From: a virus
Length of the DNA: 64,000 nucleotides
IMG/VR virus record: IMGVR_UViG_3300009182_000047
Location: 1-64,000 of that record
Direction: 5' to 3' (one strand)
Shown: positions 5,607-17,082 of the stretch, in pieces
Layout of the letters: the number at the start of each line of letters is the position of its first letter
How positions within the stretch are numbered: position 1 is the stretch's first letter
Notes under the pieces: generated by a model
Database searches by the model: none
What the model was told of the DNA's origin: nothing
Seen by the model: the letters and a program-made list of their open reading frames with translations, nothing else
Translations under genes and position numbers: made by a program

Positions 5607-5979
5607 AATAACCAAAGCTGTTCTAGAAAGTCTAGGATTACCTGCTGACGAGAAACGGGTCAAAAAAACAATTCCAACTTGGTGGCAAAATCCAAGAAGC
5701 AAAGACACCGGCGGACTCCGCTTAACAGATCAAGGCTTTGAGTGCCTTAAAAAAGCCGATATCAAAAGCTACGAAGTCAAATTTGACGAGCCTATTGTCT
5801 ATACAAATCAATTGGCCATTTGGATAGACCAGAACATAGACTGTCCGTTTTATATTACTAAAAAAGCCATACACGTATTCAGTGAAAAAATGGCTGTCCA
5901 ATTAGTGTTGTTTTCTGGCAACATTGCCAAATTTCATAGAGCACGAAAAAGATTTGCAGAAAAAGACAAAAACTCTTGA
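5590..5979 (+). CDS. Conserved hypothetical phage protein
   Basis: 129 residues. A distinctive central segment (TIPTWWQNPRSKDTGGLRLT) followed by GFECLKKADI looks like a conserved fold, and similar sequences occur in aquatic T4-like phages as far as I recall. The end is basic (KFHRARKRFAEKDK), possibly nucleic-acid binding, which is inference. It is the last gene before a consensus promoter. Confidence 0.7.
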   Translation: MNPKYEITKAVLESLGLPADEKRVKKTIPTWWQNPRSKDTGGLRLTDQGFECLKKADIKSYEVKFDEPIVYTNQLAIWIDQNIDCPFYITKKAIHVFSEKMAVQLVLFSGNIAKFHRARKRFAEKDKNS

Positions 5980-6004
5980 CAATATAGGAAAAGTTTGCTA
6001 TAAT
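5976..6004 (+). promoter_or_regulatory. Consensus sigma70 promoter for the MoxR gene
   Basis: TTGACA at 5976-5981 and TATAAT at 5999-6004 with a 17-base spacer: a full match to the bacterial housekeeping consensus, 50 bases before the MoxR start. It is the strongest promoter seen in the window. Confidence 0.85.
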
Positions 6005-6054
6005 TAACATACTGTAAAACATACAGCTCCACAGTTTTTTAAAGAAAGCACTTT

Positions 6055-7137
6055 ATGTCAAAAGAGATGTCAGCAAATCGTACAGTTAGCCCAAACGAAG
6101 CTAAAGCCGCAATCCGCAAATGTATGAAAAAACAACGCCCTGTTTTTATGTGGGGCCCTCCCGGTATTGGTAAATCCGATATTGTTAAACAGCTCGGTGC
6201 TGAACAAGATCGTAATGTGATTGATGTTCGATTGAGTCTTTGGGAACCTACTGATATCAAAGGTATTCCATTTTACAATGCCAATCTGGGTACAATGAGC
6301 TGGGCTCCTCCGCTCGAGTTTCCTCAAGATCCAGAAGATACTTCCATCCTGTTCTTAGATGAATTGAACAGTGCGGCTCCTGCAACACAGGCAGCGGCTT
6401 ATCAGTTGATCCTAAACCGTCGTGTTGGTACATATGTTTTGCCAAAAGGTGTAACAATTGTTGCCGCTGGTAACCGTGAAGCAGACAAAGGCGTTACTTA
6501 TCGTATGCCTGCTCCGTTGGCTAACCGTTTCCTGCACGTTGAACTCCGTAGCGATTTTGAAGACTGGCATACTTGGGCTGTAAGCAATCGCATCCATGAA
6601 CAGGTTGTTGGTTATTTGGGTTTTGCCAAGCAAGACTTGTATGACTTTGATCCAAAGAGCACCAGCAAGGCATTTGCTACACCACGTAGCTGGAGTTTTG
6701 TTAGTGAATTGGTGGAAGAAGATGACGTCTCCGATAGCACTTTGACTGATTTGATTGCAGGTGCAGTCGGTGAAGGTTTGGCAGTTAAGTTTATGGCACA
6801 CCGCAAGGTAGCAAAACAAATGCCTAAGCCAGAAGACATTTTGTCTGGCAAAGTTAAGAAGACTGAGATTAAAGAAATCTCCGCTATGTATTCTTTGACA
6901 ATTAGCCTGTGCTACGAGCTCCAAGAAGCTGATCGCAAGAAGGCTAAGGATTGGGATATTATGGCAGACAACTTCTTTGGCTACATGATGGATAATTTCC
7001 CAACCGAATTGGTTGTCATGGGTGCTAAGGTTGCGTTAACTAACTATCAATTGCCGTTTGATGCTAGCAAGTTGAAGAACTTTGACAAGTTCCACGACAA
7101 ATACGGTAAGTACATTATCCAAGCAATGGAAGGTTAA
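6055..7137 (+). CDS. MoxR-family AAA+ ATPase
   Basis: A 360-residue AAA+ protein with Walker A GPPGIGKS (residues 34-41), Walker B ILFLDELN (98-105, catalytic Asp102 and Glu103), a sensor-1 region (TIVAAGNREADKG) and an arginine-bearing segment (PAPLANRF). This is the MoxR layout. MoxR ATPases act as chaperone-like remodellers, usually with a VWA-domain partner that recruits clients or metal. The next gene encodes such a partner, each with its own promoter. The C-terminal third is helical and less conserved. The phage target is unknown. Confidence 0.85.
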   Translation: MSKEMSANRTVSPNEAKAAIRKCMKKQRPVFMWGPPGIGKSDIVKQLGAEQDRNVIDVRLSLWEPTDIKGIPFYNANLGTMSWAPPLEFPQDPEDTSILFLDELNSAAPATQAAAYQLILNRRVGTYVLPKGVTIVAAGNREADKGVTYRMPAPLANRFLHVELRSDFEDWHTWAVSNRIHEQVVGYLGFAKQDLYDFDPKSTSKAFATPRSWSFVSELVEEDDVSDSTLTDLIAGAVGEGLAVKFMAHRKVAKQMPKPEDILSGKVKKTEIKEISAMYSLTISLCYELQEADRKKAKDWDIMADNFFGYMMDNFPTELVVMGAKVALTNYQLPFDASKLKNFDKFHDKYGKYIIQAMEG

Positions 7138-7141
7138 AATT

Positions 7142-7163
7142 GGACCCTACGGGGTCCTTTTTT
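7142..7163 (+). terminator. Intrinsic terminator after the MoxR gene
   Basis: GGACCC (7142-7147), 4-base loop, GGGTCC (7152-7157), then six Ts. A compact rho-independent terminator separating MoxR from the VWA gene. Confidence 0.85.
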
Positions 7164-7165
7164 AC

Positions 7166-7194
7166 TTGCTCTTTGAACTAAATGAGTGTATAAT
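7166..7194 (+). promoter_or_regulatory. Sigma70-type promoter for the metallopeptidase-VWA gene
   Basis: TTGCTC (7166-7171) and a perfect TATAAT (7189-7194) with 17 bases between, 24 bases before the ATG. The -35 box is only half consensus. Confidence 0.6.
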
Positions 7195-7218
7195 TAATTA
7201 TTGTAATAAGGAGTTTAT

Positions 7219-8478
7219 ATGTCTAGTGTAATGAAAGCAGAAAAAACAAAAAAGCAAGATTGGGTCGGTAAGGAATTTACTGCCGCTGAGAAAGCTAAAA
7301 TTCTTGACAAGCTGATTACAGCCCGTGTGGGTCTGTTGCTTCGTCATCCATTCTTTGGCAACTTGGCAACCCGTATGAAGCTGATTGATGCATCTGACTG
7401 GTGCCATACACTGGCAACAGATGGTCGCAATTTTTACTTCAATTATGGTTTTGTAAATAAGCTCACTCCTAAAGAAGCAGAGTTTGGTTTTGCACACGAA
7501 GTCTTACATAATGTGTTTGATCACATGGGACGCCGTGATGGACGAGATCCTCAGTTGTCAAACATTGCCGCTGACTATGCTACTAACCAAATCCTTAAAG
7601 ATGAACGAATTGGTACGGTGCCAAGTTTTATTAAAATCTTTCAGGATGACAAATATCGTGGCAAGAGCTATGAAGAAATTTATAATGACCTTTACGAGAA
7701 AGCCGAAAAGATCGATCTCAGTGATCTAGGTGAATTGTTGGACGAACATTTAGACGGTGAAGGCGATGGAGATAGTGACGGAGAAGACGGTGATGAAAAA
7801 GAAGGCAAAGGTCGTCCTAAACTGACTGCTGAAGAAAAGAAGCAGATCCGTGATGAGATCAAAGAAGCTATGGTGGCGGCCGCTCAGGCAGCAGGTGCAG
7901 GCAAAGTGCCAGCAGGCGTCCAACGTATGATCAAAGACTTCACTGAGCCTAAAATGGATTGGCGTCAGCTGTTGCGTATGAATATACAAAGTATTCTTAA
8001 GAGCAACTTCAGCTTCAGCCGCCCTAACCGCAAGTCACAGCACTGCGGCGCTATCTTGCCAGGCATGATGAACGAAGAAACTATTGATGTATCTGTGGCA
8101 ATTGACATGTCAGGTTCTATTAGCGATGCAATGGCTAAAGACTTTATCAGTGAAGTTAAAGGCATCATGGACGAGTACCAGGACTTTAAATTGGACTTGT
8201 TCTGCTTTGATACAGAAGTATATAACTATGCTCAATTTACAGCTGATAATGCTGACGAGATTATGAGCTATGAATGTAAGGGCGGTGGCGGTACTGACTT
8301 TGATGCTTGCTATGAATTTATGAAGGCAGAAGGTATTGAGCCAAAACGTTTCATTATGTTTACAGACGGTTATCCTTGCGGTAGTTGGGGCGACGAAGAT
8401 TACTGCGAAAGCCTGTTTGTAATTCACGGTAACGAATCTATCGTTTCTCCGTTCGGTCAGACAGCCTATTATAAATAA
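7219..8478 (+). CDS. Metallopeptidase-like plus VWA domain protein, partner of MoxR
   Basis: 419 residues. The N-terminal domain has a zinc-peptidase HEVLH motif (residues 93-97) within an alpha-helical region. An acidic linker (about 166-195, Asp/Glu/Gly-rich) leads to a C-terminal VWA-like domain with the MIDAS motif DMSGS (296-300) and GGGGTDF near 355. This is the two-domain plan of the DUF2201 family (putative metallopeptidase plus VWA-like), which often sits beside MoxR ATPases in bacteria. AAGGAG lies upstream of the ATG. In this phage the pair could process or remodel a host or phage protein; no substrate can be read. Both active-site motifs look intact. Confidence 0.8.
   Translation: MSSVMKAEKTKKQDWVGKEFTAAEKAKILDKLITARVGLLLRHPFFGNLATRMKLIDASDWCHTLATDGRNFYFNYGFVNKLTPKEAEFGFAHEVLHNVFDHMGRRDGRDPQLSNIAADYATNQILKDERIGTVPSFIKIFQDDKYRGKSYEEIYNDLYEKAEKIDLSDLGELLDEHLDGEGDGDSDGEDGDEKEGKGRPKLTAEEKKQIRDEIKEAMVAAAQAAGAGKVPAGVQRMIKDFTEPKMDWRQLLRMNIQSILKSNFSFSRPNRKSQHCGAILPGMMNEETIDVSVAIDMSGSISDAMAKDFISEVKGIMDEYQDFKLDLFCFDTEVYNYAQFTADNADEIMSYECKGGGGTDFDACYEFMKAEGIEPKRFIMFTDGYPCGSWGDEDYCESLFVIHGNESIVSPFGQTAYYK
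8470..8477 (+). promoter_or_regulatory. Late promoter box, perfect TATAAATA
   Basis: TATAAATA at 8470-8477 matches the T4 late -10 element exactly. It overlaps the VWA stop codon and lies 13 bases before the next ATG, so a transcript from it would have a very short leader for that gene. Confidence 0.45.
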
Positions 8479-8490
8479 AGTAGGTACATT

Positions 8491-8781
8491 ATGTCGCTAA
8501 ATAGAGGGACAGTTAATGCGTTAGGTGTGCTAGGATTTAGGAAGGTTCCTTTTATCCCAGCACACTTTTCCAAACTCTCTATTGATCATAGGATAGATAT
8601 CAAGGCTATAGAACACTGGATCGAATATAACTTAAACAGTAGATATTCAATTAAGATGAACTATAAACTTGATTATGCTAGGAAAGTCATAGAAGTCACA
8701 GAAATTGGCTTAGAGGATCCTAAAGAACTAACTATGTTATCACTAGGGTGCCAATACTTACATAAGAAAAAGGAATTTTAA
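8491..8781 (+). CDS. Small conserved hypothetical protein
   Basis: 96 residues starting MSLNRGTVNALGVLGFRKV. Contains an aromatic, helix-prone middle (IEHWIEYNLNSRYSIKMNY) and a short basic tail. No domain is recognised. It directly follows the late box at 8470 and ends 1 base before the next gene, so a shared transcript is likely. Confidence 0.65.
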   Translation: MSLNRGTVNALGVLGFRKVPFIPAHFSKLSIDHRIDIKAIEHWIEYNLNSRYSIKMNYKLDYARKVIEVTEIGLEDPKELTMLSLGCQYLHKKKEF

Positions 8782-15420: not shown

Positions 15421-17082
15421 TTATCTTCCATAACGGTAAATCTTAGGTCTAGGCCAAGTCTGTCCTTGGGTAGGTCGATTGCCTAAATTTATTTTAGGTC
15501 CAATTTGTCCAAAAATTTGGCGTTCTTTATAAAAATAGAGATATCTATTTTCCGATCCTTGAAGATCGGTATAATCAGTTGCGCCGCCAGTTCCTGCTGT
15601 AATTTGATTTTTTGTAGAGTGGGATTGTATATATGTAGATATTTGACTTTGTTTCATTGTAGGCCAGGTTTCAGCAACGCAGGCAACCACACCTGCGACC
15701 TGAGGACTAGCCATGGATGTTCCAGATTTTTTAGAAATATAATACGCAGTATTTCTAACATCATTTGAGAATGCGTTAATGGTTGAATTTACAGAACTCA
15801 TTATATAACTACCGGGAGCATAAAGATCTACCCTAGGGCCGCAGTTACTAAACGATGCCTTAGCTTCATTAACAGTTGATCCGACACATCCTACGCAAAT
15901 TGCACCAAGTACTGCTGTAATTGATCCACGCAAATAATAATATATAAAGGACCCAACGGCAAAATAATTATTGTAATCATCAGTAACAGTTGCGCTGTAA
16001 TTGCTTACCTTGCTAAACTGATTTCCGGCGGCGCCTACAACTATTACTCCGGCGGCCATAAGATCAATTAAATCTTGTTCTATTGAAGTATTCCTTACTG
16101 AAGGATACGCATAACCACCAGTATTGTATATTCCGTAGTTACTTAATTGCAAACTTGTAAATGGACCATTTATAATTGTTCCATTTATTCTAACAGAAGT
16201 AATTGAAGTAATTGCAACTTTTCCAGTTAATCCGTAACTGTGATTTGTAACGGTTGGATTTTTAATACCAGTTATTGGGTTGGGCAATTTATTTTGATGC
16301 CACACTTTGACGTAGTCGATGAAATAAATTGTAGATGCACTAGGACTGCTTGCATACGGACTTATATTATATATATTAGCATCATGGGCCCAACCTTGTG
16401 TATTGCCTGCTGTAATTCCAGCAACGTGTGTTCCGTGATCGTTATCGGTTGTTCTGTCTGAATATCCATCTCCATTAGTATCGGGATAAGTTGGATCAAC
16501 ATAGGGAGTATAGATATATGTACCCGCAGATCCTCCAGTAACTGTAGGATTTAAATTGAACCAATTATACTGAACTACTCTAGATCCTCCTGTACCATCA
16601 TTATTGACTGCAAACTCGGGGTGATTAGGATTCATATGCCCGTCTACTATGACAACATCTACATTTTTACCGCTAGCAGTTACATTAATTTCTCCAGTGA
16701 CTGATGACACAGCACCGTTAGATCCCCAACTAGGTCGAGTTGCTCCCTCGACTGATCTTAATAATCCCCAATTTTTGTAATTATCTGCAACTGAATTGGA
16801 TTTATTCCAGTATATACTTACTTCTGTCCAGCTTGGACTTAAAATTAATCCCTGTTCTTTAATTGATAGATCGACTTCTAGAACCCTAGGATCATGTCTA
16901 ATCTGATTGGCTTCTTCTTCAGTTAACAAATAATGTGTATTTCTGCTAACTGGTCGTCTATTGAAAACTTCGACTGCTCTATCAGGAATATATAAATTTC
17001 CACCAGGAGTTTCCATATCCTCATAGAATGAGTCTAAGTCCTCATGCTTGTGTAAAGTTACAACATATTCGCAAGTTTCCAT
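15421..17082 (-). CDS. Subtilisin-like (S8) serine protease in the fibre operon
   Basis: 553 residues with the full S8 catalytic set: Asp147 in VVIVDGHMNPNHPEF, His216 in DNDHGTHVAGITAG, oxyanion Asn354 in VVGAAGNQF and Ser456 in SGTSMASPQVAG. About 135 residues precede the catalytic domain and may be a pro-region or virion anchor; no signal peptide is seen. The C-terminal 35 residues are Gly/Pro/Arg-rich. It lies between fibre genes, so a virion-borne protease that matures fibres or digests host surface protein is plausible, but that is inference. Active-site residues are intact; the Asp is followed by Gly-His rather than the common Ser/Thr-Gly. Confidence 0.85.
   Translation of the reverse strand: METCEYVVTLHKHEDLDSFYEDMETPGGNLYIPDRAVEVFNRRPVSRNTHYLLTEEEANQIRHDPRVLEVDLSIKEQGLILSPSWTEVSIYWNKSNSVADNYKNWGLLRSVEGATRPSWGSNGAVSSVTGEINVTASGKNVDVVIVDGHMNPNHPEFAVNNDGTGGSRVVQYNWFNLNPTVTGGSAGTYIYTPYVDPTYPDTNGDGYSDRTTDNDHGTHVAGITAGNTQGWAHDANIYNISPYASSPSASTIYFIDYVKVWHQNKLPNPITGIKNPTVTNHSYGLTGKVAITSITSVRINGTIINGPFTSLQLSNYGIYNTGGYAYPSVRNTSIEQDLIDLMAAGVIVVGAAGNQFSKVSNYSATVTDDYNNYFAVGSFIYYYLRGSITAVLGAICVGCVGSTVNEAKASFSNCGPRVDLYAPGSYIMSSVNSTINAFSNDVRNTAYYISKKSGTSMASPQVAGVVACVAETWPTMKQSQISTYIQSHSTKNQITAGTGGATDYTDLQGSENRYLYFYKERQIFGQIGPKINLGNRPTQGQTWPRPKIYRYGR

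Follow-up and report, generated by a model that had tools for sequence, protein, structure and literature searches.

Within the 64,000 bases analysed here (bases 1-64000 of the 78,189-base virus record IMGVR_UViG_3300009182_000047; hereafter, the window), a gene for a MoxR-type AAA+ ATPase lies directly 5' of, and on the same strand as, a gene whose product joins an N-terminal putative metallopeptidase domain (DUF2201) to a C-terminal VWA domain, an order likewise seen in phage N4 (Table 1). A preliminary description of this DNA had proposed a MoxR ATPase with intact Walker motifs, followed by a protein combining an HEVLH metallopeptidase with a VWA domain bearing a metal ion-dependent adhesion site (MIDAS), and this arrangement is borne out by the open reading frames, the Pfam matches and the conserved residues. 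The ATPase exceeds the Pfam cut-offs for AAA_3 (PF07726), AAA_5 (PF07728) and AAA, and matches phrog_1297 over nearly its full length (E 4e-104, residues 6-355). Its partner matches both PF13203 (putative metallopeptidase; E 1e-40, 140.4 bits against a gathering cut-off of 23.2) and PF09967 (VWA-like; E 2e-15, 57.4 bits against 26.4), together with phrog_1314, again at near full length (E 2e-109, residues 20-418). Judged by sequence, the two proteins belong to the N4 gp24/gp25 family (PHROG 1297/1314), and the pair is a further member, real, conserved and intact, of a known but functionally uncharacterised family.

Table 1. Coordinates of the gene pair and its regulatory and active-site features in the window, and bacterial loci of two operon types.
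Feature	Position or loci	Strand	Remarks
MoxR-type AAA+ ATPase gene, N4 gp24 family	6055..7137	+	360 aa; Pfam AAA_3/AAA_5; phrog_1297
DUF2201 gene (N-terminal putative metallopeptidase, C-terminal VWA), N4 gp25 family	7219..8478	+	419 aa; phrog_1314
moxR sigma-70 promoter, TTGACA-17-TATAAT, extended -10	5976..6004	+	12/12 consensus
Predicted hairpin near presumed moxR transcript 5' end	6012..6026	+	weak in window copy, -3.4 kcal/mol
Intrinsic terminator between the genes, with T run	7142..7157	+	kept in relatives
Second promoter	7166..7194	+	weak -35 TTGCTC (7166-7171), perfect -10 TATAAT (7189-7194)
Walker A, GPPGIGKS (residues 34-41)	6154..6177	+	G37, K40 invariant in 42 aligned proteins
Walker B, FLDE (to D102 E103)	6346..6363	+	D102, E103 in at least 90% of 42 proteins
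HEVLH motif (H93 E94 H97), residues 93-97	7495..7509	+	near-invariant in viral relatives
MIDAS, DMSGS (residues 296-300)	8104..8118	+	plus T359 (8293-8295), D383 (8365-8367)
Helicase-MoxR-DUF2201-VWA cassette loci	L212, L222, L227, L228, L231, L237, L239, L241-L243, L247, L249-L252, L254, L257, L261, L262, L265		
Reverse transcriptase-linked loci	L202, L225, L229, L232, L236, L238, L253, L258		

The pairing itself is strongly conserved. Two scans of IMG/VR, in which adjacency was counted with a clean MoxR profile, each returned 80 loci: one with the second protein as query (78-100% identity) and one with a small alignment (identity down to 52%), the latter leaving 69 loci after removal of nine repeated contigs, one identical stretch and the window itself (L001). 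In 78 of the 80 and 66 of the 69 loci, 144 of 149 together, the gene immediately upstream, in the same orientation, encodes MoxR, and the remaining five (two and three, respectively) have less than 500 nucleotides (nt) of upstream DNA; the idea that MoxR and VWA genes form a conserved system here is thus well founded. MoxR is also upstream in 9/9 further viral loci, two of which are copies of N4 and Atu_ph07. As queries, N4 gp25 and the Atu_ph07, S-TIM61 and PA5oct proteins found two, one, four and two IMG/VR loci, respectively. Of 50,697 phage records searched by tblastn, 799 contain a relative of the ATPase and 733 one of its partner; the pair is found in phages of different families. Among 16 diverse phage records compared, which include N4, RaK2, PA5oct, Atu_ph07, SCTP-2, LUZ7, phiR1-37, AR9, phage G, phiFa, S-TIM61, 2-L372D, Pag-Yong1, ECP32 and 4MG, MoxR is upstream on the same strand in 14, with a gap of at most 500 nt in nine of these and intervening genes in the other five. 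In ECP32 (L088:1648-3101), 3.6 kb separate the VWA gene from a MoxR gene on the other strand, and two neighbouring reading frames are both labelled MoxR ATPase. We also considered a conserved third component in phages and rejected it, as no third gene family recurs in at least three of these 16 loci other than one topoisomerase-type family (three loci); for this reason the pair seems self-sufficient.

The residues expected of active proteins are conserved as well. Across 42 aligned MoxR proteins, K40, N140, R158 and R211 are invariant, and from their positions we take the last three to be the sensor 1 asparagine, the arginine finger and the sensor 2 arginine, as in MoxR AAA+ proteins of the pre-sensor 2 insert clade. 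In the partner, 17 diverse proteins with 22-53% identity to that of the window all keep H93, H97, H102, R105, D119 and N123, together with D296, S298, G299, S300, G358, T359, T382 and D383. H93, H97, H102, D119, N123, D296, S298, S300 and T359 are invariant in 136/136 distinct viral sequences, while E94 is glutamate in 135 of these (15 of 16 in the phage records) and D383 is aspartate in 135, with one gap. Agrobacterium phage Atu_ph07 (L085:3941-5230) reads HQILH, both in GenBank and in the IMG/VR copy, so that the catalytic glutamate is lost and the metal ligands and MIDAS are kept. The search pattern held neither motif in the first IMG/VR scan, the MIDAS in the second and HE..H in the bacterial scan described below; the count of HExxH motifs is therefore free of bias in viruses and not independent in bacteria. 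The intact Walker, HExxH and MIDAS residues described for the window hold up, and the invariant H102 and D119 are candidates for a third zinc ligand.

AlphaFold2 models of both proteins are confident (predicted local distance difference test scores: MoxR protein, 92.9; partner, 87.5), and the AAA+ and VWA folds are found in them. For the MoxR model, dynein AAA modules, NorQ and CbbQ are tied at a Z score of about 15 among the fold matches listed, and RavA is absent from the 50 matches listed; by sequence profile, Midasin comes first (E 1e-31, with one wrong row in the profile). Two strands (residues 71-75 and 80-84) stand where the helix-2 beta-hairpin insert is expected, as judged by position rather than superposition. 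In the partner, residues 287-419 match VWA/I domains (Z 13-14, root mean square deviation about 2.4). VWA matches fill the partner's fold-match lists, which barely cover the N-terminal domain; by sequence, the profile reaches minimal metallopeptidases such as MJ1213 (E 0.002), with M48 peptidases as weaker matches. The segment of residues 243-285 aligns to VWA_CoxE at E 0.0015, under that model's cut-off, and its W248 and P281 are present in at least 90% of 46 proteins.

Each gene appears to be transcribed separately. The full-consensus promoter and own terminator that had been described for moxR are both present in the window and conserved in relatives: of 61 distinct sequences upstream of moxR, the window's own included, 57 contain a promoter matching at least 11 of 12 consensus positions, whereas 10 of 610 segments of 110 nt drawn at random from these loci do so, and we accordingly reject a chance origin. 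At a looser threshold, promoter-like sites show no excess (45 in the first 16 kb against 50.5 in shuffles). Across the window only four sites reach 11/12, two of them 12/12, and three of the four precede genes, namely a gene at 2275, moxR, and a gene ahead of an SbcCD-like pair, none of these three genes being identified as a head or tail gene. The gene at 2275 looks radical-SAM-like by eye. A separate promoter for the second gene, also part of the preliminary description, holds up in that TATAAT is found between the genes in all 54 distinct intergenic regions, with a -35 element that in the window matches only three of six consensus positions. The terminator is present in the same 54/54 regions, in the form of 36 different stem sequences. 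Mononucleotide shuffles of these regions yield a terminator in 1.6% and TATAAT in 13.5% of cases, and both elements therefore look selected. Such host-type promoters would fit early expression of the pair. We regard this conserved promoter-terminator-promoter layout of the window's phage clade as among the most useful new points.

The start of the moxR transcript may also be structured. Assuming transcription to start 6 nt past the -10 element, the first 32 nt of 52 distinct leaders fold better than their dinucleotide shuffles (mean z -1.8; 23/52 below -2), and a stem of at least five pairs forms in 44 of them against 26 expected. The stem sequence (window 6010-6035) varies among relatives, and eight of the 52 fold at -1 kcal/mol or weaker. 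That such a stem protects the moxR messenger is a guess.

Relatives of the pair are not confined to phages. In GTDB genomes, scanning recovered 80 loci on bacterial or archaeal contigs, with MoxR upstream in 71, downstream in one, on the opposite strand in one and not in view in seven, five of which have less than 1.2 kb of upstream sequence. Some of these loci (L186, L187, L188 and L193) may be phage, and our tree places L188 within the phage clade and L193 next to phage G. L187 is a phage contig binned with a bacterial metagenome-assembled genome (MAG) and shares the gene order of the window's phage clade; L186, whose partner protein is 57% identical to that of the window, is probably a phage contig in a bacterial MAG too. 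Operons of the pair also occur on one archaeal contig. With open frames taken from the first possible start, which makes single gap values approximate, 53 of these 71 pairs overlap or lie within 20 nt of one another (median -1), compared with 2 of 79 in the close viral group that includes the window's locus (median 85). From these distributions, bacterial pairs are for the most part coupled, whereas those of the window's phage clade are uncoupled.

Two sets of bacterial loci have distinctive neighbours (Table 1). In 20 of the 80, mostly from Bacillota, a homologous protein of 857-1200 residues, found to be an SNF2-type helicase in the one that was scanned, lies upstream of MoxR. A further eight share a protein of 848-1037 residues (499 at a contig end in L232; 848 in L202) with a C-terminal retron-type reverse transcriptase (RT), for which PADLOC RT_XIII was the best match in the three that were scanned (E 2e-71 to 5e-74). 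Retron RTs are marked by YADD/FADD, NAxxH and VTG motifs, and these are present in all eight. In most of the eight, an N6/N4 methylase lies between RT and MoxR (recognised by Pfam in two loci and, in a further three, from its motif by eye or by script), followed by an unfamiliar protein of about 300-310 residues; L225 and L229 have a single 346-residue protein instead. In a quick tree without bootstrap, seven RT-linked partners form one clade (Shimodaira-Hasegawa-like approximate likelihood ratio test value of 100) and six helicase-linked partners another, and well supported branches of the tree as labelled require no fewer than four switches between phage and bacterial carriers, two of which rest on the short MAG contigs L188 and L193, which may be phage. 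The operon of RT, methylase, MoxR and DUF2201-VWA may represent an undescribed retron-like system. The parts of the literature covered by our searches hold no description of an operon joining a retron RT, MoxR and DUF2201, and we found no report of one joining an SNF2-type helicase, MoxR and DUF2201. A search of 398 genomes of one phylum for full-length relatives of the retron-type RT gave 11 matches, of which only that in the source genome was full length. Other bacterial copies sit, by eye, among housekeeping-like genes with neither an RT nor a helicase as neighbour. A family of about 310 residues is encoded just 5' of the VWA gene in L189, L190, L191, L192, L194, L200, L206 and L210, and the one member scanned had neither a Pfam nor a PHROG match; in L190 this protein lies between MoxR and VWA, with a ThiF-like gene nearby (by eye). 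We rejected a protein of about 260-315 residues, encoded by or between the genes in certain bacterial and phage loci, as a shared component, as there was no common family among seven scanned.

With moderate confidence, we read the pair as a self-contained ATP-driven remodelling machine, expressed separately from host-type promoters, whose client is most likely an intracellular complex. Pairing, key residues, promoters and terminator are conserved, and the folds are predicted; a ring, its contact with the partner, zinc binding, proteolysis, timing and a client are what we infer. In this scheme the MoxR protein would form an AAA+ ring, and the partner would attach to it by the stretch that precedes and surrounds its VWA domain. 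The partner would grip the client by way of an acidic residue completing the metal site of its MIDAS, and its N-terminal HExxH domain would hold or cut the client; the near-invariance of E94 favours cutting. While the MIDAS holds the client, the ring might turn or stretch the VWA partner by means of a finger reaching into its pore, for which residues 243-285 are a candidate. Such a finger has a precedent in NorQ-NorD, where, in the available text of the cryo-electron microscopy study, a VWA finger occupies the AAA+ pore and the MIDAS is suggested as the client site (PMC13036017). In the window's clade both genes appear to be transcribed separately from host-type sigma-70 promoters, and the ATPase and its partner could therefore differ in amount and precede the late genes. 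The client would most likely be found in infected cells, for example in the replication or transcription machinery of phage or host, rather than in the virion alone. We rejected the idea that the window phage's client is a giant virion RNA polymerase, since the 4657-residue protein of the window matches a virion structural PHROG.

A number of observations weigh against this interpretation. The pair is not always adjacent, its genes being on opposite strands in ECP32, and 4MG has no MoxR gene in the roughly 3 kb of upstream flank examined. The HQxxH variant of Atu_ph07 means that cleavage cannot be needed everywhere. Our searches found no biochemical or genetic data on the gp24/gp25 family; the main text of the CRISPRi-ART paper makes no mention of phage N4, gp24, MoxR, AAA+ or VWA, and the jumbo-phage review PMC13282480 likewise yielded nothing on the terms looked for in it. 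The remaining points concern the virion, on which the published data point both ways. On the portion of the study available, Iyer et al. 2021 (PMC7824862) reported a MoxR-vWA-metallopeptidase pair in group 2.2 jumbo phages and, by analogy with the MoxR-VWA pair of Acidianus two-tailed virus, proposed that it processes proteins by peptidolysis during virion assembly. The window pair might likewise be an assembly or maturation chaperone-peptidase that remodels and trims head or tail proteins, a role that we consider possible though doubtful. It would fit the mass-spectrometry note carried by the PA5oct MoxR protein, although the RNase H of PA5oct bears the same note, and the single peptide of a MoxR-like ATPase in particles of Staphylococcus phage DC4. 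In the text available for DC4, whose ATPase is linked to the window family by description rather than by homology comparison, the ATPase gene adjoins a metallopeptidase gene and the authors want the particle peptide confirmed (PMC10638138). Three genes upstream in RaK2 are annotated as virion structural, and the gp24/gp25 homologues of phage RPP1 have a second structural module in their vicinity (PMC4193335). In the same partial source, the 14 genes that make up the core of 25 N4-like phages include gp24 and gp25, alongside structural, replication and transcription genes; the 13 RPP1 virion proteins that it names include neither product, and four of them, of the middle phase, come from the second structural module and lack a homologue in N4 (Chan et al. 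2014, PMC4193335). It also gives gp24 and gp25 as middle gene transcripts in N4 (PMC4193335). In a published table, as far as that source was available, two of three methods mark gp24 as shared (the third carries a star), as against one of the three for gp25 (PMC7650795). A role confined to assembly also sits poorly with the occurrence of the pair in varied phage families, in bacterial operons and in one archaeal operon, with neighbours in L216 and L241 that are, by eye, not phage genes. Furthermore, the window phage encodes its own S77 prohead protease, and moxR has a host-type promoter, with no site that strong before an identified structural gene. Elsewhere, the excerpts at hand place the phiR1-37 ATPase gene g304 among the most expressed (PMC4848604) and 41 of 43 AR9 virion proteins in the late class (PMC5312081); the phiR1-37 record has a terminator between g304 and g305, parallel to the window's layout, and the AR9 record an annotated early promoter before the ATPase gene, which speaks for our reading.

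The remaining alternatives turn on what the client might be. NorQ-NorD and the CobS-CobT chelatase provide models for a chaperone that inserts metal or a cofactor, and an unlikely reading would have the window pair act in this way on a phage or host metalloenzyme, with an HExxH domain that binds metal and does not cut. NorQ and CbbQ are among the top-tied solved folds, Atu_ph07 keeps the ligands without the catalytic glutamate, and nucleotide-metabolism genes lie nearby: thymidylate synthase in the window and RaK2, dCTP deaminase in N4 and ThyX in S-TIM61. Retention of the glutamate in 135 of 136 distinct viral sequences nonetheless exceeds what a mere binding site would need, and no metalloenzyme neighbour recurs in at least three of the 16 diverse phage loci. 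Still less do we expect a function in conflict, whereby the pair would disable a host defence or other host protein early, or represent a defence module copied into the phage. Such a part in biological conflicts, raised in the preliminary description, finds some indirect backing in the bacterial relatives that adjoin a retron-type RT or a helicase-family protein, and in the changes of carrier noted above, but not in those among housekeeping-like genes. PADLOC gives a weak DolB match (E 0.003) for the ATPase and, at a threshold of E 0.01, no match for its partner, and the RT- and SNF2-linked copies form clades of their own rather than nesting in the window's phage clade. Most anti-defence genes would not be expected among the core genes of N4-like phages, a status that, as far as the source goes, looks closer to a basic function than to an accessory gene for the takeover of a host process that had been suggested (PMC4193335). 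More speculatively, MoxR-DUF2201 could be a general plug-in remodelling peptidase of phages, stand-alone bacterial operons and two defence-like operons, with phages using it early, without the translational coupling, to dismantle host complexes bound to nucleic acid, possibly those defence complexes themselves; we think this improbable.

Comparison with known systems places the remodelling machine that we favour closest to N4 gp24/gp25, which share both families (by profile), gene order and strand with the window pair; gp25 is 26% identical to the window protein, and the window genes differ in having separate promoters with a terminator between them. NorQ/NorD and CbbQ/CbbO likewise couple a MoxR AAA+ protein to a MIDAS VWA protein, with ATPases about 15% identical to that of the window, as does RavA/ViaA, on the incomplete accounts available, in joining a MoxR AAA+ protein with a VWA partner; the window partner has PF13203, and RavA is absent from the fold matches listed. 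To our knowledge, NorD lacks an HExxH domain and ViaA a metallopeptidase domain. The vWA-MoxR ternary conflict systems share MoxR and vWA components with the window but, in the text available, require a third component of VMAP, FtsH or beta-propeller type (PMC7159879); the bpMoxR model scores 18.6 bits on the window MoxR protein, under its cut-off of 27. The group 2.2 jumbo-phage pair has the same architecture as that of the window, with the metallopeptidase fused before the VWA domain, and relatives of the window occur on contigs of up to 328 kb. The available part of that account favours virion assembly and does not treat regulation or bacterial relatives; it also describes the pair of Acidianus two-tailed virus, which is viral too but has no peptidase domain (PMC7824862). 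The structural match to Acidianus ORF892 is weak (E 4e-6, TM 0.26).

New here, besides the promoter layout, are the contrast between uncoupled and coupled genes, the residue census, the RT- and helicase-linked operons and the recognition of a wrong label. The partner family is called an HNH endonuclease in phrog_1314, NC_008720 gp25, NC_019526 gp481, NC_031039 gp029 and others, a PHROG and RefSeq label that we reject, as the Pfam matches include no HNH domain. It may stem from homing endonucleases such as the putative one, EST35_0339, that lies among the genes between the pair in PA5oct. Some GenBank records call the family an anti-sigma factor. Although the family is widespread in phages and core in N4-like phages, we found no functional study of it; its invariant active sites make the question of whether it cuts, and what, testable in N4 and AR9-type phages, and the bacterial RT- and SNF2-linked operons merit study in their own right. 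Two minor features of the window remain. The T4-type late-promoter-like sequence TATAAATA lies at 8470-8477, overlapping the end of the VWA gene and ahead of a 96-residue gene at 8491; it occurs only twice in the window and is uninformative on late genes. A subtilase gene (PF00082, E 3e-27) lies at 15421-17082 on the minus strand, amid large structural-type genes.

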